Shown: positions 31,262-50,143, counted from the stretch's first letter. The stretch is DNA of 64,000 nucleotides from Aliarcobacter sp. (GCA_028690445.1 JAQVBE010000016.1:1-64000); one strand, 5' to 3'. Notes: generated from the letters alone by a model not told the origin. Numbers and translations are program-made.

Positions 31262-32032
31262 ATGTTAAAAAAACCAAATTTTTATAGCGTAATAATTGGA
31301 ACTGAACTTTTAAATGGACGGAGGACTGATGCCCATTTTGCATTTTTAAACCAACAACTTTTAAGTAGAGGTTGGGAACAAAAAGCCTCTTTTGTCATAA
31401 ATGATGACATAAATCTTATGAAAAATATTTTTAATCTAATAAAAAGCGACCCAAACTCTGTAATGTTTTGTTTTGGTGGAATCGGTGCAACTCCTGATGA
31501 TTACACAAGAGTTGTAGCAGGAAAAGTTTTTCGTGATGGAAAAATGGAATTTCACGAAGAGGCAAAAACTAGAATCATAAATCAGTTTGGAGATGAAGCC
31601 TATCCACATAGAATAAATATGGCATATCTGCCAATAAATGCAAAACTTCTTACAAATGTAGTAAATAATGTAGCAGGATTTTACCTAGAAGATAGATTTT
31701 TCTTTACCCCAGGTTTCCCATCAATGAGCCAATCCATGGTTGTTGAAGCATTAGATAAGTTATATCCAAAATCAAATATTGAAAAATATCGAAAAGTAAT
31801 GACAATAAATGCAAGCGAAAATGACCTAATAGATACTATGAAAAAAATCCCTGAAAATATAGATTTATCTTCACTTCCTAAGATTTTAGGAGATAAAAGA
31901 AAAGTGGTTATTTCTTTGGCTGGATATGATAAGGATGAGGTTGAGAAATATTTTAAATTGTTTGTTGATTATTGTATTGAGTTTGAGAAAGAGTCTGTTT
32001 TTGAGGATGTGAGTAATAAGGAGAGTAAATGA
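31262..32032 (+). CDS. CinA-like molybdopterin-binding-domain protein
   Basis: The 256-residue protein has the MoaB/MogA-type fold at the N-terminus: VIIGTELLNGRRTDAH and CFGGIGATPDDYTRV. This is the COG1058 part of CinA, without the C-terminal nicotinamide deamidase domain. In CinA this part has ADP-ribose pyrophosphatase activity in NAD metabolism; whether that holds here is unknown. Its stop overlaps the mcrB start in ATGA, so mcrBC may be read from the same transcript. Confidence 0.82.
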   Translation: MLKKPNFYSVIIGTELLNGRRTDAHFAFLNQQLLSRGWEQKASFVINDDINLMKNIFNLIKSDPNSVMFCFGGIGATPDDYTRVVAGKVFRDGKMEFHEEAKTRIINQFGDEAYPHRINMAYLPINAKLLTNVVNNVAGFYLEDRFFFTPGFPSMSQSMVVEALDKLYPKSNIEKYRKVMTINASENDLIDTMKKIPENIDLSSLPKILGDKRKVVISLAGYDKDEVEKYFKLFVDYCIEFEKESVFEDVSNKESK

Positions 32033-33864
32033 CTTTATATGAGGGATATGAATTTTATAAGAGTGTGCAAGGTACAAAATATGATGTAAATGATTTAGAG
32101 AAGAAAGAAAAACTACAAGAATTTAGAAATAATTTAGGTAATTTTACAGATAAAATTTTTAAGGATAGACATTCTTTACTAGCACTTGAAAAAGGTATGT
32201 GGCAAAATAGTGGCAATTTTACAAAATATATGTGGAATAGATATAAATATAAAGATGATAATTCAAGTCTAGTTATTTATTTTAATGCTTCTACAAATGA
32301 AGAAGGTTTATTTGTTTCTATTGGTTTAATTGATAATAAATTAAGTGAATTAGAAAAGATAAATAGTCAAAAAATATATGATTATTTAGAACAAGAATGT
32401 AAAAAAATAAATTCTATTGGTTTTGAAAGAAAAAATACTGGTTGGGGAGAAAGAGTTTTTTCTGTTATAGATAAAGAAAATTTTGAGACTTTAGATTATG
32501 ATGATTTAATACAAAAATTAAAAAAAATTTATGATGATGCATATAAAAAGTTTTATTTAAATCAAGATAATAATACTAAAAATAGAGTATTTAATATGTT
32601 TAGACAATCATTAAACCAAATCCTTTTTGGACCTCCAGGTACTGGAAAAACATTTAATACTATAAATAAAGCTTTAGAGATTATTGATAGTGATTTCTTT
32701 CAAGCAAATAAAGATGATAGAAAAGCTTTAAAAGATAAGTTTGAAGAGCATAAAAAAGCTGGACAAATAGAGTTTGTAACATTTCATCAAAGTTATGGAT
32801 ATGAAGAATTTGTTGAGGGAATAAAAGCTGATTTGGACAGTGATGAAATTAAATATAAACTTGAAAAAGGTATTTTTAGAAAATTATCAAATTTAGCAGA
32901 ATTAAATTATAGAAAATCTATTGCAACAATTGAAACAAAAAAAGATTTTGATACTTTGTTTAAAGAACAAATACTTGATAAATTAATAGATGATGAAAAA
33001 TTAAAGATTTCAACTCCAAAAAAACATTTTTTTATAACGGAAGTTAATGAAAAAACTATATTTTTTGAAAAAGCAGAAGGACAAACTGACCATTCTTTAT
33101 CAATTAGAACATTAAAAGAAATGTATGAAAGTGGCAAAAATGAGAAAATAAAAGGTGGTTTATCAGTTTATTATGAACCTATTTTAAATTTTTTGTTAGA
33201 AAATTCTTTATTTGATAAAGTTGATGAAGAACCACTTAAAAACCATATCCTAATAATTGATGAAATCAATAGAGGAAACATCTCAAAAATCTTTGGAGAA
33301 CTTATTACACTTATCGAGCCATCAAAAAGAATAGGTGCAGAAGAAGAGATAAAAGTGAAACTTCCATACTCAAATGATGAGTTTGGAGTGCCTCAAAATC
33401 TTTATATAATAGGCACTATGAATACAGCTGATAGAAGTATTGCTTTGATGGATACGGCTTTACGAAGAAGATTTGAGTTTATAGAGATGTTGCCAGATTT
33501 GGAAGTTTTAAAAGGTATAAAAGTAGAAGAAATAGAAATTTATAAACTTCTTGAAATAATAAATAAAAGAGTAGAGTATCTATATGATAGAGACCATACA
33601 ATAGGTCATGCTTATTTTATGAGTTTAAAAGAAAATGCAACTTTAGAAGAGTTGGAAAATATATTTAAAAACAAAATAATTCCACTTTTACAAGAGTATT
33701 TTTATGATGATTGGGAAAAGATTTTAATGGTTTTAGGAAATGGCTTTATAGAAAAAAAAGATATTAGTGATGATATTTTTGATTATAAAGTTAATGATTA
33801 TTTAGAAGAAGAGAAAAGTGTATATAAAATAAAAGATAAATTTGATTTTAGTAGTTTTAAATAA
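32029..33864 (+). CDS. mcrB: McrB-type AAA+ GTPase, type IV restriction system
   Basis: McrB recognises modified DNA and, with McrC, cleaves it using GTP-driven translocation. The 611-residue protein has an N-terminal domain of about 190 residues of the DUF3578 kind, Walker A FGPPGTGKTFNTI (GPPGTGKT at 201-208), Walker B ILIIDEINRGNISK near 406, and the McrB signature MNTADRSIALMDTALRRR near 462. The N-terminal recognition domain differs from E. coli McrB, so the target modification is not known. It overlaps both neighbours, four bases with the CinA-like gene and one base with mcrC. Confidence 0.92.
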   Translation: MTLYEGYEFYKSVQGTKYDVNDLEKKEKLQEFRNNLGNFTDKIFKDRHSLLALEKGMWQNSGNFTKYMWNRYKYKDDNSSLVIYFNASTNEEGLFVSIGLIDNKLSELEKINSQKIYDYLEQECKKINSIGFERKNTGWGERVFSVIDKENFETLDYDDLIQKLKKIYDDAYKKFYLNQDNNTKNRVFNMFRQSLNQILFGPPGTGKTFNTINKALEIIDSDFFQANKDDRKALKDKFEEHKKAGQIEFVTFHQSYGYEEFVEGIKADLDSDEIKYKLEKGIFRKLSNLAELNYRKSIATIETKKDFDTLFKEQILDKLIDDEKLKISTPKKHFFITEVNEKTIFFEKAEGQTDHSLSIRTLKEMYESGKNEKIKGGLSVYYEPILNFLLENSLFDKVDEEPLKNHILIIDEINRGNISKIFGELITLIEPSKRIGAEEEIKVKLPYSNDEFGVPQNLYIIGTMNTADRSIALMDTALRRRFEFIEMLPDLEVLKGIKVEEIEIYKLLEIINKRVEYLYDRDHTIGHAYFMSLKENATLEELENIFKNKIIPLLQEYFYDDWEKILMVLGNGFIEKKDISDDIFDYKVNDYLEEEKSVYKIKDKFDFSSFK

Positions 33865-35081
33865 TGATTTTAAAAGAGTTTGAATTTCTTCAATATAAAG
33901 ATGATAAAAAAGAAAACTATATCAAGTCTGAAACTTTTGAAGCAATAGAAAAATTTGTTCTTGAAAATGAAACTGAACAATATTTAAAAATCACTACAAA
34001 AAAAGGTTTTGGAAAAGTTTTACAAGCTCAAAATTATGTGGGAGTTATTCAAACAAAAGATGGAACTACAATAGAAATTTTGCCAAAGATTAAAAATTTT
34101 GATGAGCAAAAATTAAAAGAAATTTTAATAAATATGCTTAAAACTCTTAAAAAATCTCCATTTAAAAAGTTTAACACAGCAAATTTAAAAGCTCATAAAA
34201 TGCCACTATTAGAGATTTTTATTTCAATGTTTTTAGAAGAGTTATCAAAGCTTATTCAAAAAGGAATAAAAAGTGATTATGTTCAAAAAGAAGAAAATTT
34301 AAAATTTCTAAAAGGCAAACTCAAAATCTCTGAACAAATTAAACAAAATAGTGTTCATAAAGAAAGATTTTTTGTTTTATATGAAGAGTTTAGTAGTGAC
34401 AGAGTTGAAAATAGACTTATAAAAACCACACTTGAATATCTTTATAAAAAATCGAAATCAAATAAAAATCAGCAAAGAATTAGGGAATTTTTATTTGTTT
34501 TTGATGAAATAAAAATATCACACAATATTAAAACAGATTTTGAAAAAATCAAGTTAAATCGTCAAATGAAAGATTATGAACAAGTGCTTTTGTGGTGTAA
34601 AACTTTTTTACTTGAAAATTCTTTTTCTCCGTATAAGGGAAATGATATTGCATTTGCACTTTTATTTGATATGAATTTACTTTTTGAAAGTTATGTTTAT
34701 GATTATTTGAAAAGAAAAGACAGTTTTGAGAATATAAAGAATCAAGATAAAAAACATCATTTAGCCTATGAAAATGAAAAAGGTAAATTTGCTCTAAAAC
34801 CTGATATTGTAGTAGATGATGGGAAAATCATAATTGATACAAAATGGAAGATTTTGAATGAGAATAAAAGCAATCAAGGTATTTCTCAAAGTGATATGTA
34901 TCAACTTTATGCTTATGGAAAAAAATATAAAATTTGTGAAAATTTGTATTTGATTTATCCAAAAGATGAGGTAGAAAAAGGAAATTTATATCACTATTAT
35001 GAGGATAAAAAATTACCTTTAAAAGTTTTGTTTTTTGATGTTGAAAATTTGGAAAATAATGAGAATTTATTAAATAAGTAA
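33864..35081 (+). CDS. mcrC: McrC-type nuclease subunit, type IV restriction system
   Basis: The 405-residue partner of McrB. The C-terminal third carries a PD-(D/E)xK nuclease core: LKPDIVVDDGK (Pro313-Asp314) and IIIDTKWKIL (Asp325-Thr-Lys327). ALLFDMNLLFESYVYDYL just before is the usual conserved helix. The N-terminal half matches the McrC segment that contacts McrB. The start codon shares its A with the mcrB stop (TAATG). The pair looks intact. Confidence 0.9.
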   Translation: MILKEFEFLQYKDDKKENYIKSETFEAIEKFVLENETEQYLKITTKKGFGKVLQAQNYVGVIQTKDGTTIEILPKIKNFDEQKLKEILINMLKTLKKSPFKKFNTANLKAHKMPLLEIFISMFLEELSKLIQKGIKSDYVQKEENLKFLKGKLKISEQIKQNSVHKERFFVLYEEFSSDRVENRLIKTTLEYLYKKSKSNKNQQRIREFLFVFDEIKISHNIKTDFEKIKLNRQMKDYEQVLLWCKTFLLENSFSPYKGNDIAFALLFDMNLLFESYVYDYLKRKDSFENIKNQDKKHHLAYENEKGKFALKPDIVVDDGKIIIDTKWKILNENKSNQGISQSDMYQLYAYGKKYKICENLYLIYPKDEVEKGNLYHYYEDKKLPLKVLFFDVENLENNENLLNK

Positions 35082-45267: not shown

Positions 45268-45309
45268 ACTCTGCCTTTGTCCGTTGGATAAAGAATAAAA
45301 TTAGTTAAG

Positions 45310-45798
45310 TCATTTACTATCAATTTCTAAAAGAAGTTTATAAATTTGTTTTTTTATTCTATTTCTTTCAAATTCAAGTAATATTTTTTCAAATTTCTCT
45401 AATTCTTTATATTTATCACTTAAAAGTTTTAGTTTAGAATATTCAATTAAAATTAACTCACAATTTTCTGTAAAATAAAAAGTTCGTTTTGATTTTTCTT
45501 TTTTTACTAAATTACTATAATCTGATACAAAACAAAATGAATAATTAAAGAACATCATATCTTTCTTATAATTATAAAAATCTAACTTTTGGTTTGAATC
45601 TAAAGTTGCTTTTATATGTCCAGAATTAATAAAATATATAAAGTTATTTAAATCTAATACATCATTTTGAGAATAAGTTTGTATTTTTAGAATAGATTCC
45701 AATGAATACCAAACTTTTTCATTTTGAGATATGTATTTTTGAATAAATTCTCTCAATCCAATTAATTTAATATTTATTTTATTTAATCTTTTATACAT
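45310..45798 (-). CDS. Crp/Fnr-like cyclic-nucleotide-binding-fold protein lacking a DNA-binding domain
   Basis: The 162-residue protein has the arrangement of a Crp-type sensor domain: a helical start, ILKIQTYSQNDVLDLNNFIYFINSG (core beta strands) and ENCELILIEYSKLKLL, then a dimer-helix-like end. It stops where the helix-turn-helix would begin, so it may bind a ligand or signal but not DNA. No glycine-rich phosphate-binding cassette is evident, so a cyclic nucleotide ligand is uncertain. It overlaps the FISUMP gene upstream by 16 bases. Confidence 0.55.
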   Translation of the reverse strand: MYKRLNKINIKLIGLREFIQKYISQNEKVWYSLESILKIQTYSQNDVLDLNNFIYFINSGHIKATLDSNQKLDFYNYKKDMMFFNYSFCFVSDYSNLVKKEKSKRTFYFTENCELILIEYSKLKLLSDKYKELEKFEKILLEFERNRIKKQIYKLLLEIDSK

Positions 45799-46994
45799 CT
45801 AACGGAAAATCCTGCTGTTTTATATATCGTACTTATTCCTTTATAATTTGGATTAAATATTAGAAAATATGCATAAGAATTTGAAACATCTTTCGTCCAG
45901 TAATTACCATATAATCCTTCAGATAAGATATTACTATTATTATTTAATTTATAACCTGCCATAGTTAACTTTAAATCATTATTGTTATCGTTTAAAATTA
46001 AGCCAGCATTAAATTCATTTTCAAATTCTACTTTAGTTGGTAATCTCCAGCCATTAGGACAAACATTATTTGTACTATCAACACCATCCCATAATTTATC
46101 ATTCTTATTAACTCTCCAATCAAAAGGATATTTATTTGAAATTATATGAAAATTATGAGTTGGATTATCTGATGGATAATTCATATTTACAGATAATTCT
46201 TGCTTATTTCTAAACTCATGACCATCAGATTTTCTACCCCATTGAAATAAACTTCCATAAGCATTTACATCTACTATAGATTTTGCTTGTTTAAAAGGAT
46301 TACCACATAAATAAATATTATTCATATCTGAATATTTTGCACCAAGATTATTATTTAACCAAATTTTACCTGTAATGGGACTTACTACGGGATAATATAC
46401 AAAATTATGACTTTGTGTATTTCCTGTATTATCTTTCTTTTTGTACATTTTATCTTTTATACCAGAGATTACTTTTATTTCAAGCACTCCATATTGATTA
46501 TATAAAAGATTGCGAGGATAAGTAAACTCTGCCAATGTGTATCCATCGTCTTTTTCAATTTGTAATTGCTTAGTTTTAAATTTATTATCTGGAATACTTG
46601 ATTCTTTATCATCAATTTCTAAAGTTGCATTTATATATCCATTTCCAGTTAAGCCAAATTGTTTTGGATAAGAAAGTATAAGTTTTGCATTGTGTTCATT
46701 TTCACTTGAATAATTATTATTCAAAGTTACTACTTGTTTGTATTCGTCTAAATCCACTTTTTTAGAGCTATTTATATAATAAGGAATTTTAATTTGCTGA
46801 TTAGTCTTAATATCAATATTTCCTTCTATATTAATGTTATATTTTAAATCATTTATTGAAATTATGTAGTAAGTTAATCTCTCTTCAATATATGTATTTT
46901 GAAAATACTTCTCAATCTTTGTAAAATTAATATAAAATTCAAAAATTATTCTTGAAATGAAAATTCCAAGAATTACATAAATAATTTTTTTCAT
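45783..46994 (-). CDS. membrane-anchored FISUMP-domain protein
   Basis: A 403-residue protein with one N-terminal membrane anchor (about 4-20), a beta-rich region of about 170 residues, and a C-terminal FISUMP domain (Fibrobacter major paralogous domain): YGSLFQWGRKSDGHEF, NVCPNGWRLPTKVEFEN and AGFSVRCIKD are its landmarks. Such domains are extracellular and resemble C-type lectin-like folds; the ligand is unknown. The protein probably faces the periplasm or surface. It overlaps both neighbours, so the three genes form one operon. Confidence 0.75.
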   Translation of the reverse strand: MKKIIYVILGIFISRIIFEFYINFTKIEKYFQNTYIEERLTYYIISINDLKYNINIEGNIDIKTNQQIKIPYYINSSKKVDLDEYKQVVTLNNNYSSENEHNAKLILSYPKQFGLTGNGYINATLEIDDKESSIPDNKFKTKQLQIEKDDGYTLAEFTYPRNLLYNQYGVLEIKVISGIKDKMYKKKDNTGNTQSHNFVYYPVVSPITGKIWLNNNLGAKYSDMNNIYLCGNPFKQAKSIVDVNAYGSLFQWGRKSDGHEFRNKQELSVNMNYPSDNPTHNFHIISNKYPFDWRVNKNDKLWDGVDSTNNVCPNGWRLPTKVEFENEFNAGLILNDNNNDLKLTMAGYKLNNNSNILSEGLYGNYWTKDVSNSYAYFLIFNPNYKGISTIYKTAGFSVRCIKD

Positions 46995-47461
46995 TTTCTA
47001 CTCCTAAGATTCAAAAAATTAGATATATTTTCAAGTATTTCATATATTATTTTATATTCTAGTATTCTAATATTTTTGGAATCTCTTAAAAGAGAAAAAG
47101 AAATATTTAAAAATTCTATATCACCCCTTAATATAATTAATAGTTCTTTATCATTTAAATTATTTTCATCTAGATAAAAATATGTTAAATGATAAATTAA
47201 TTTTTGCATAAAAGATGTATTTGTTAAATATTTAATTACAGGTTTTTTATTTACATAAATAATTTCAGGTATAACTTTATAAGTATTATCTATTAATCTA
47301 TCTCTTAATATTATAGGAATATTCTTATATTTCAATTTGTATAAATTCTTTTTATAATAAATTTTATATAAATTATAAAATAACACTTTTTTTTCTAAGA
47401 TTTCATCATTACTAAATAAACTACTCAAAATTATAAACCTTGTTTTTAATTTCATCCACAT
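46991..47461 (-). CDS. uncharacterised protein, first gene of FISUMP operon
   Basis: I do not recognise this 156-residue protein. It is rich in Ile, Leu, Asn, Lys and Tyr, basic, without a clear signal peptide or membrane helix. The gene is the most AT-rich of the local genes and overlaps the next by four bases (ATGA). It lies opposite the XRE-type regulator, from which 178 bp of repeat-bearing DNA separate it. The low-complexity composition suggests foreign origin. Confidence 0.6.
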   Translation of the reverse strand: MWMKLKTRFIILSSLFSNDEILEKKVLFYNLYKIYYKKNLYKLKYKNIPIILRDRLIDNTYKVIPEIIYVNKKPVIKYLTNTSFMQKLIYHLTYFYLDENNLNDKELLIILRGDIEFLNISFSLLRDSKNIRILEYKIIYEILENISNFLNLRSRK

Positions 47462-47480
47462 ATTCTATTTTAAATAGAAT
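47462..47480. repeat. palindrome just upstream of the FISUMP operon
   Basis: ATTCTATTTTAAATAGAAT is a perfect inverted repeat with 8-bp arms and a 3-base spacer, immediately upstream of the first gene. It is a plausible operator for the divergent XRE-type regulator. Confidence 0.6.
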
Positions 47481-47486
47481 ATTTTA

Positions 47487-47528
47487 TATATCATATTAAT
47501 TATATCATATTAATTATATCATATTAAT
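47487..47528. repeat. three perfect 14-bp tandem repeats
   Basis: TATATCATATTAAT occurs three times head to tail (47487-47500, 47501-47514, 47515-47528) in the intergenic space between the FISUMP operon and the XRE-type gene. Copy number could change by slippage and shift promoter spacing. It has no unique spacers, so it is not CRISPR. Confidence 0.9.
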
Positions 47529-47639
47529 TATATTCTAAATATATTTTTTTATTTTAAATGGATTAATTGAGGTCATTTTTTGATATATGCTATAAAAATA
47601 CTCAGTATAATTATCAAAAAATGATTAAAAAGGATAAAA

Positions 47640-48104
47640 ATGGAAGTCTATGAAAAGATAAATGAAATTTTAAAAAATAACAATTTATCAAAAAAAGCTT
47701 TTTCATTAAAACTTATTGAATTGGAACCAAAATTAAGAAATACGGGAGAAGTTCCAACTATTAATGCTTTATATTCATATTTAAGTGGTGATGTATCTCT
47801 TAGAGTTGAATTGATTCCTTATATTGCAGAAGTATTAGATATTCCCGAACAAATATTATTTGATGATAGTAATCGTGCTAGGATGAAAATATTAAAATAC
47901 ATTATAGAGGATATTAATTCTCAAGAACGCAATTTTCTAATTAGTAAATTAAATATTAAAGAAAAAAATCATGAAAATGAAAATGTTCAGAAAGATATAA
48001 TTAACTCAATCAATGATTTACTTAAATATGCACCTGAACCATTTTTAAAGAATATTGAACATACATTGAAAGATTTTAAATCTCTCAGTGATAAATTTGA
48101 ATAA
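47640..48104 (+). CDS. XRE-type helix-turn-helix regulator
   Basis: A 154-residue protein whose first 75 residues look like an XRE-type HTH domain: INEILKNNNLSKKAFSLKL, then PTINALYSYLSGDVSLRVEL as the recognition region, and YIAEVLDIPEQILFDD as the closing helix. The remainder is helical and may mediate dimerisation. It is divergent from the three-gene FISUMP operon and converges with the OmpR-type gene, 13 bp away. Control of the FISUMP operon is a fair inference from position. Confidence 0.75.
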   Translation: MEVYEKINEILKNNNLSKKAFSLKLIELEPKLRNTGEVPTINALYSYLSGDVSLRVELIPYIAEVLDIPEQILFDDSNRARMKILKYIIEDINSQERNFLISKLNIKEKNHENENVQKDIINSINDLLKYAPEPFLKNIEHTLKDFKSLSDKFE

Positions 48105-48116
48105 TTTATTACTTTA

Positions 48117-48806
48117 CTATAAAGAATCTATCATATAACCTTTATTTGATACATTCTTTATAAAAGTATCATAAGTTTTCAATCTAATACTTTTTACAAA
48201 ATTTCTTAAAGAAAAAATAGAAAAATTCTTTTTCCCCCATATACAAGTAGATATTTCTTGATAATCAACTAATCTATTTATATTTTTCAATAATAAAACA
48301 ACTAATTTTATTTCCATTTTTGTCAAATTTATTATTTCTCTATCTTTAAATAAAAATTCTTTACTCATATCAAAAGTGAAACCTCTTTCTAATGTAATTT
48401 TATTATTTAAATAAACATAATTAATACATAAGCCTATTGATACAAATAATAACTGGGTATTAATTGGTTTATAGATAACTGTATAAGTATTTGTAGAATT
48501 ATAATAAGATAAATCAACTTTTAACCGATCTTCAATAACAATAATTGGTACATTTAAATTATTATTAAATTTAGTTAAACTTAAAGTAAAAAATTTTAAA
48601 TCATCTGATACATTATCAAAAACTATAACATCCACTCGTTCTGTAAATTTATTTAAAAAAAAGTCATCTTTATTCTTATATATAAAATTATATATTTGTT
48701 TATTTTGTTCAAAATTCGATTTTAAGTCTAAAAAAAAATTAAAATCATTGCTAATAAATAATACTGTCTTTTTTAAAGAGCTATTTTCTTTTTCTATTAT
48801 TTCCAA
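48117..48806 (-). CDS. divergent OmpR-type response regulator
   Basis: The 229-residue protein has a poor receiver domain (residues about 13-130) in which VIVFDN keeps Asp64 at the phosphoacceptor position and VIYKP the Lys, but the acidic pocket reads ISNDF. The C-terminal part (about 135-229) is a winged helix: LTKMEIKLVVLLLKNINRLV, CIWGKKNFSIFSLRNFVKSI and SNKGYMI. No histidine kinase gene is adjacent. It may work without a partner or with a distant one. The gene is very AT-rich. Confidence 0.75.
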   Translation of the reverse strand: MEIIEKENSSLKKTVLFISNDFNFFLDLKSNFEQNKQIYNFIYKNKDDFFLNKFTERVDVIVFDNVSDDLKFFTLSLTKFNNNLNVPIIVIEDRLKVDLSYYNSTNTYTVIYKPINTQLLFVSIGLCINYVYLNNKITLERGFTFDMSKEFLFKDREIINLTKMEIKLVVLLLKNINRLVDYQEISTCIWGKKNFSIFSLRNFVKSIRLKTYDTFIKNVSNKGYMIDSL

Positions 48807-49239
48807 AATATAAACCCCTATTAATAATTTATTTATAATAGAATATTTTATCTTAAATATAAATAATTAAGTACATATTTTATATTAAATAAATTAATAT
48901 AGTTTATAACTTTCTCAACATCATAACAAACTCAGTTAATCAAACCTAAAATCCCATCCAAGAATAAGCAATCAAAAGTTCGATAAATTGGCTATTTCTT
49001 TTTTCTATAAATATTTTTTTTAATATATTTTTATTGGATTTGAAATTTAGTCTTTAAAGCTCCCGACTAGCCGGTGTTTTAAAAGAATAAAAAATTTTGA
49101 ATTATTACAAAATTGGGAAAACTTATTACAGAAAGTGGCTTTACATCGTACTTTTGATTACAAATTTGGGATTTAACAATAGTAAATATTAGAAATATTT
49201 CTAATATTTTAGGTTAAAGATTAAGAAATTGGGATTTTT
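48807..49239. other. AT-rich intergenic region with iteron-like repeats upstream of rep remnant
   Basis: Three related 15-mers occur on the plus strand: ATTACAAAATTGGGA (49104-49118), ATTACAAATTTGGGA (49157-49171) and ATTAAGAAATTGGGA (49220-49234), spaced 53 and 63 bp. A 26-bp palindrome lies between the second and third. No coding sequence was found. This may be what remains of an iteron-type plasmid origin, although true iterons are usually closer together. Confidence 0.5.
49184..49209. repeat. perfect 26-bp palindrome upstream of rep remnant
   Basis: The 13-mer AAATATTAGAAAT (49184-49196) is followed directly by its reverse complement (49197-49209), 30 bp before the rep start. Rep_3 initiators often repress their own gene by binding an inverted repeat here. 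Confidence 0.85.
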
Positions 49240-50131
49240 ATGAAAAAAGAGTTAATTGTAGTACAGAAGAATAATTCTATAAGAGGGGATTTTTCAAATC
49301 TTGAAATAAGAGATATGAAAATATTAAAACTTTTAGTTTCAAAAGTTAATGCAACAGGAGATAAGTTTAATGACTATTACTACATTACAAAAGATGAAGT
49401 TAGATTATTTCAATTTAATGAAAGAAATATACATAGCTATATTAAAACAAGTCTTAGAAGATTAAGTTCTGTTTTTATAGTTGTTAAAAATGATGATAAG
49501 GAAGAAATTGAAATTTCACTTGTAGGAAAAATCATCTATGATAAGAAGAATGGTATTTACAAAGTGCCACTTAGCGCAGATTTAAAAGAATATTTAATTG
49601 ATATTAAAAAAGAGTTCACAAAATATAATCTTTCTAATTTAGTATATCTTACAAGAAAAGAACAATTAAAACTGTATGAATATCTAAAAAGTATTAGCTT
49701 TGAAATATTTGTTATATCAATTGAAAATTTAAAAACTATTATGGAAATTAATAAAAAGAGTTTTGAATCATTTTTAACTTTCATAAAAAGTTAAAAGAAA
49801 CAATTTTAACTATTAATGAAGCAACAGATATAAGTGTTAAATTCAAAATAGTAAAAGAGAATAATCAATCTAAAAATGTTCAATTTTCAATTAAAAGATT
49901 TGAAACAAAAACTTTTATTCCTAATACTCTAACAATTGAAAATCTAAATTTAAAATACTCAAATAAAAATATCATGTTAAATTCAACCATATACATGCTT
50001 AAAACACTCGAACTATGTGAGGGCTATGTATAATTGCATCAGTTTATTCGAAAGAGTTAAATTTGGTAGGTAAATTGAAGTTTAAGAGTTTGGAGGACTG
50101 TGATGCGTATTTTGAAAGGGAAATTAATTAA
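49240..50131 (+). pseudogene. frameshifted plasmid replication initiator (Rep_3/RepB family)
   Basis: The first 184 codons read as the N-terminal part of a Rep_3 initiator: VVQKNNSIRGDFSNLEIRD and LKEYLIDIKKEFTKYNLSNL. The frame ends at 49794 soon after SFLTF, and the next frame continues from about 49783 with HKKLKETILTINEATDISV, the expected second winged-helix domain, to a stop at 50031-50033. A third frame carries a further tail (KSLEDCDAYFEREIN) to 50131, suggesting a second shift. The first shift is clear, the second less so. It is a decayed plasmid gene in a chromosomal setting. Confidence 0.8.
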
Positions 50132-50143
50132 AATCCAAAGAAG

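Follow-up and report, generated by a model that had tools for sequence, protein, structure and literature searches.

A probable RT-less, "frozen" derivative of a FISUMP-type DGR in an Aliarcobacter accessory insertion

What are the five genes that lie together in an accessory region of the window (the whole 64,000-nucleotide stretch analysed here), and do they form one system? The original prediction described them as an unnamed accessory system, with an unknown basic protein (P0003), a membrane-anchored FISUMP protein (P0002) and a Crp-like sensor fold (P0001) in one operon, opposite an XRE-type gene (P0004) and an OmpR-type regulator (P0005), possibly serving surface recognition or defence. 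Here, we propose, with a probability of roughly 0.6, that the recurring part of this set is a retired, "frozen" derivative of a FISUMP-type diversity-generating retroelement (DGR), lacking a reverse transcriptase (RT) and having a fixed binding specificity.

All five predicted ORFs are present (Table 1), the three overlapping genes do overlap, by 4 bases (P0003/P0002) and 16 bases (P0002/P0001), and GC content falls to 18-25% in this region, in keeping with the AT-richness described. Together with a Rep3-type rep gene, they lie in an insertion of about 4.86 kb, flanked by the 3' end of an MCP gene on one side and that of selB on the other. Two close relatives (G004, locus L101; G023, locus L102) have these 3' ends within about 20 bases of each other, and the empty site there shows the insertion to be accessory. 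The plasmid remnant predicted nearby is the rep gene (Rep3_N), which is frameshifted near 49795, the remaining Rep being legible in another frame to about 50033, and its product is 35-39% identical to plasmid Rep proteins of Arcobacter and Aliarcobacter. A 26-base perfect palindrome lies about 30 bases upstream of it (49184-49209). Elsewhere in the window, two adjacent genes at 32029-35081 look, by eye, McrB- and McrC-like (modification-dependent restriction system).

Table 1. Features of the insertion, in window coordinates
Feature	Position	Strand	Basis or content
Accessory insertion	45283..50143	.	MCP and selB 3' ends abut in G004 and G023
P0001, cNMP-sensor-like fold without C-terminal HTH	45310..45798	-	truncated CRP-type gene at insertion edge
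P0002, membrane-anchored FISUMP protein	45783..46994	-	TIGR02145; homology to DGR variable protein
P0002 FISUMP domain	~45786-46376	-	TIGR02145
P0002 region equivalent to DGR variable region (residues 345-397)	45804..45962	-	ungapped alignment to L165 VR/TR
P0002 signal anchor	~46929-46985	-	N-terminal hydrophobic stretch from residue 4, KD19 = 2.14
P0003, stand-alone N-terminal (fingers) fragment of DGR-type RT	46991..47461	-	no palm, no YxDD
Divergent intergenic region, 178 bases	47462..47639	.	a palindrome, and a 14-base sequence repeated three times in tandem
P0004, XRE-like regulator divergent from P0003-P0002	47640..48104	+	78% identical gene in same divergent position in G012
P0005, extra copy of OmpR-like regulator, degenerate receiver	48117..48806	-	Trans_reg_C
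Rep3-type plasmid replication gene, frameshifted remnant	49240..50033	+	PF01051; continuation in another frame

Which of these genes belong together? Of the 104 genomes in the family, only one besides the window genome (G000), that of a second species (G012), had close homologues of both P0003 and P0002. The identities are 47-50% for P0003, 58% over the full length of P0002 and 78% for the XRE gene P0004, and the second species keeps the gene order, the divergent placement of the XRE gene, the 4-base P0003/P0002 overlap and intact reading frames. Its cassette occupies a different chromosomal site, with a CcoG-adjacent gene on one side and several accessory genes in a row on the other; at that site G005 lacks the cassette. 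Because P0003, P0002 and P0004 recur together, their association goes beyond chance, and the real unit comprises three of the five genes: the P0003-P0002 pair and, divergent from it, the XRE gene P0004. The co-occurrence that the original prediction proposed to look for (P0003, P0002 and P0001) was thus found for the first two, joined by the XRE gene, and not for P0001; similarly, its accessory and undescribed set stands, but two of its members do not. Neither P0003 nor P0002 had relatives on plasmids (tblastn), the P0003 profile found none among viral contigs, and two scans of genome contigs gave no relatives. Beside the G012 cassette (L080, 10396-18440) there are an M23 peptidase gene (Pfam) and, by eye, genes for an Hcp-like protein, a KAP-type NTPase and a ParB-like protein.

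Copies of P0001 and P0005 are absent beside the G012 cassette, which has P0003, P0002 and the XRE gene, and both therefore fall outside the recurring unit; the Crp-like and OmpR-like genes were accordingly rejected as members of the system. Together with the frameshifted rep, they are local passengers of the insertion. P0001, which ends about 27 bases from the insertion edge, can be aligned with CRP-type proteins of 198-213 aa (one of which matches PF00027 at 45.6 bits) and stops before the C-terminal HTH DNA-binding domain that characterises CRP/FNR proteins, as had been predicted. P0005 has a significant Trans_reg_C domain and no Response_reg match in the domain search, and belongs to a genus-wide family with a second copy at G000:C8:165097.

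The description of P0003 as an unknown basic protein was correct as to charge (pI 9.6) and missed its origin: by homology, P0003 is the N-terminal (fingers) part of a DGR-type RT. When a profile made of P0003 and its G012 homologue was searched against 399 genomes of the order, the single clear further match, and the best non-self one (E 4.4e-8), fell within a 399-aa RT of G105. This RT belongs to a complete DGR (locus L165), where it stands beside a FISUMP variable protein, Avd and a template repeat (TR). With this RT as query, tblastn detected P0003 in the window (E 1.6e-8) and its G012 counterpart (E 2.3e-9), and hhalign of P0003 against eleven DGR RTs gave a probability of 77% (P 2e-5) over residues 19-99 (47165-47407), which correspond to the fingers segment. 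In the family, the only other genome matched by P0003 was G039, with a 29% identical stretch inside a 400-aa RT that has RYVDDFF and an adjacent Avd gene. The homology spans about 80 residues at 25-33% identity, and no curated family recognised P0003 in domain, PHROG and PADLOC searches; low identity and the absent family match are what one would expect if P0003 had no kinship with RTs and AT-rich composition had produced the match by chance. We consider this very improbable, as the best matches in two different genomes are both DGR RTs, cover the same RT segment and in one case lie beside a P0002 homologue, and as the profile and tblastn E-values reach 1e-8 to 1e-9. Structure prediction, which had been suggested as a check, was carried out and gave weak models. 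That of P0003 (pLDDT 53) has a beta hairpin at residues 64-79, where RT fingers have one, which is not evidence by itself, and Foldseek with this poor model gave no match of use, with no RT among the fold matches shown; that of P0002 (pLDDT 35) is too weak to show a fold.

P0002 scores 48.6 bits against TIGR02145 (cut-off 41.65) and 33.0 against Pfam PF09603, just below the cut-off of 33.9; with its N-terminal anchor, it is the membrane-anchored FISUMP protein that was predicted. By blastp it is 32% identical to the G105 variable protein over 364 aa (E 7.7e-64), the N-terminal beta-rich part included, and the TIGR02145 match and full-length homology together indicate a variable protein with a C-type-lectin fold and a C-terminal variable region (VR). 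FISUMP-domain relatives of P0002 are numerous in the family and the order, and among the loci viewed an RT adjoins only the G105 one. As the other viewed FISUMP loci have no adjoining RT, a FISUMP domain alone is no proof of a DGR; the P0003-P0002 pair, judged by its homology, does prove such kinship. Five genomes (G149, G162, G330, G425 and G455; L181-L196) carry multi-copy large proteins with a P0002-type N-terminal domain and FISUMP, several of them with lipoprotein-like signals.

Both genes are homologous to adjacent genes of one complete DGR, and at the level of sequence homology we take descent of the unit from a FISUMP-type DGR to be shown. What, then, is left of the machine? A functional DGR has an RT with motif 4 SQ and YxDD, a TR nearly identical to the VR, Avd or HRDC, and hypervariability at template-adenine positions. 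Of the RT, the insertion holds the fingers only, and tblastn gave no palm or Avd match there above chance, whereas Avd is present in L126, L127 and L165. Neither G000 nor G012 has a template repeat, in contrast to L165, or a DGR-type RT, the RT matches in G000 being weak and partial and lying in frames of 496 and 638 aa. Within the sequences examined, the window and G012 alike have lost the template, Avd and the catalytic RT palm.

The VR itself is informative. In the G105 locus, 22 of the 23 TR/VR mismatches fall at TR adenines and therefore bear the signature of DGR mutagenesis. With the asparagine (AAY) codons of the G105 template mapped onto P0002 as mutable positions, 13 of 16 (81%) are identical between G000 and G012, against 16 of 37 others (43%; Fisher P=0.016), so that these positions are more conserved than the rest. 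The signal depends on the exact register and disappears once the alignment is moved by one to six residues. When every codon with an A in its first or second position is counted as mutable, the difference points the same way but is weaker and not significant (18/28 against 11/25, P 0.17). A running DGR would show the opposite, with the mutable positions variable. Supported by one species pair and a small sample of 16 positions, the former binding-site positions of P0002 thus appear conserved. These results bear on the notion that the DGR is still active, with an RT and template supplied from another place in the cell or from a different element. There are multi-target DGRs whose targets lie far away (PMC8867640), and complete DGRs exist in other genomes of the family, but G000 and G012 have no TR-like repeat, the G000 RT matches are those described above, and the mutable positions are conserved instead of variable. 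This notion is barely credible, and we rejected an active DGR.

Complete or near-complete DGRs in other genomes of the family lie at L126, L127, L128, L129, L130, L131/L149, L132, L133, L150 and L151; they have RT and Avd, and several also a template within a short ORF beside DUF1566- or FGE-type targets. A second target gene begins inside the end of the RT gene in L127 and L128.

Are the genes of the dismantled element still maintained? Between G000 and G012, dS is 0.77 for P0003, 1.08 for P0002 and 0.88 for P0004, values like that of the core gene selB (1.01), which put the age of the cassette close to that of the species split. The corresponding dN/dS values are 0.50, 0.29 and 0.16 (selB, 0.20). 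For P0003, the bootstrap 95% interval is 0.31-0.79 (Fisher P 0.004), with 0.38 in the fingers and 0.72 in the C-terminal part, and neutral simulations to the same nucleotide divergence left its frame open in 0 of 2000 runs, without indels, which would only raise frame loss. On this one species pair, from which all selection estimates come, P0003 is thus, as far as substitution patterns tell, under purifying selection after loss of activity, and both P0003 and P0002 appear to be kept by selection.

The same figures weigh on the chief competing account, a decaying DGR remnant in which P0002 functions alone and P0003 is a leftover, at most a leader coupling translation to P0002; a plain leader-peptide role of P0003 is the main rival. 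P0003 is indeed the fastest-evolving gene of the set, with a weakly constrained C-terminal part, inactivated DGR RTs are already known (PMC3521204), and, given the 4-base overlap, P0002 would benefit from translation running through P0003. We nevertheless find decay unlikely: an intact frame at dS of about 0.8 is unexpected under neutrality, and the dN/dS of P0003 stays below 1 up to its upper bound, with the fingers lower still. Beyond the retired, frozen DGR that we favour, we suggest tentatively, as possible rather than probable, that the retroelement was retired for a fixed receptor and that its dead RT fingers fragment has persisted as a separate new protein, perhaps as a regulator that binds nucleic acid or as a partner of the receptor. 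This would be a domesticated DGR, in which diversification in vivo preceded the fixing of the chosen variant.

P0004 does stand opposite the operon, as predicted of the XRE-type gene, although its own regulator match is weak (PHROG E 0.0015); its family occurs in 43 of 104 genomes. Its homologues elsewhere (52-61% identity) are divergent from surface-related genes, and the family may possibly regulate surface polysaccharides. At least six of these face Wzz-like chain-length genes (L088, L089, L091, L092, L093 and L098) and two face another surface-polysaccharide-type operon (L097 and L099). The intergenic region at 47462-47639 contains probable promoters and a probable operator, and by analogy P0004 probably controls the divergent P0003-P0002 operon. 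A k-mer comparison of 14 upstream regions gave no convincing shared XRE operator. The sequence ATAGAATATTTTATMT occurs exactly twice in the window (47474-47489 and 48838-48853), just upstream of P0003 and P0005, a count that is partly circular since the motif was derived from its own sites; in L088, a similar sequence precedes the XRE gene.

A small basic protein and a membrane protein under an XRE regulator could also make up a defence or toxin-antitoxin-like module, and the island adjoins the rep remnant while the G012 copy lies near genes that by eye are Hcp-like and ParB-like. Against this, no protein had a PADLOC match, homology indicates DGR parts, and the XRE family elsewhere adjoins surface-polysaccharide genes; we regard such a module as highly unlikely. 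Of the surface-recognition or defence idea in the original prediction, a membrane-anchored recognition protein at the centre is retained, no defence model was matched, and the kinship with DGR variable proteins had been missed.

If the unit is a retired DGR, how might it work? As its signal anchor and C-type-lectin (CLec) domain suggest, P0002 would be anchored in the inner membrane with the CLec domain facing the periplasm, for recognition there or at the surface, and would act as a receptor or adhesin whose fixed ligand specificity was chosen while the ancestor still diversified. The XRE protein P0004 would repress or gate the operon. Least certain, and a guess from its RT origin and charge, P0003 may be kept for a non-catalytic role, such as nucleic-acid binding or an adjustment of how strongly the receptor gene downstream is expressed.

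The usual picture of DGRs is of machines that go on diversifying. Here, the machine appears dismantled, the winning variant fixed and an RT part kept, which makes it possible to test what becomes of hypermutating elements in the end and whether fragments of an RT can acquire new functions in bacteria. In addition, an unannotatable small protein, P0003, gains an identity, and so does a FISUMP gene, P0002, that an RT-domain survey would miss, since no RT family model recognises P0003. Our search of the open-access literature turned up neither a description of a short RT fragment conserved as a separate gene alongside a fixed variable protein nor a paper joining DGRs, or FISUMP, with Arcobacter.

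How does the unit compare with known systems? DGRs are known to target FISUMP (Fib_succ_major) domains and the related DUF1566 (PMC4159848). With such DGRs, represented here by L165 of G105, the window unit shares full-length variable-protein homology, a CLec-type FISUMP C-terminus whose last residues are GFSVRC, and an RT-derived gene beside the variable-protein gene. Unlike them, it has no TR, Avd, RT palm or YxDD, its mutable positions are conserved, P0002 begins with a signal anchor in place of the lipoprotein-like signal of the G105 protein, and the RT-derived gene comes first and the variable-protein gene second. The inactivated DGRs of the DiGReF survey carry nonsense, IS or frameshift lesions with TR and VR intact (PMC3521204); they resemble the unit in having a non-working RT, whereas the window unit no longer has a TR, and its RT fragment is encoded by a short, unbroken gene that two species share, apparently under purifying selection. 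The FISUMP protein of G031 (L024) has the same N-terminal and FISUMP domains and likewise no adjoining RT, but adjoins a two-component system and an adhesin-like gene, without P0003 or the XRE gene. Finally, the XRE-like/Wzz-like loci of related genomes have P0004 homologues in the same divergent arrangement with surface-related genes, the difference being that the divergent operon is here P0003-P0002.
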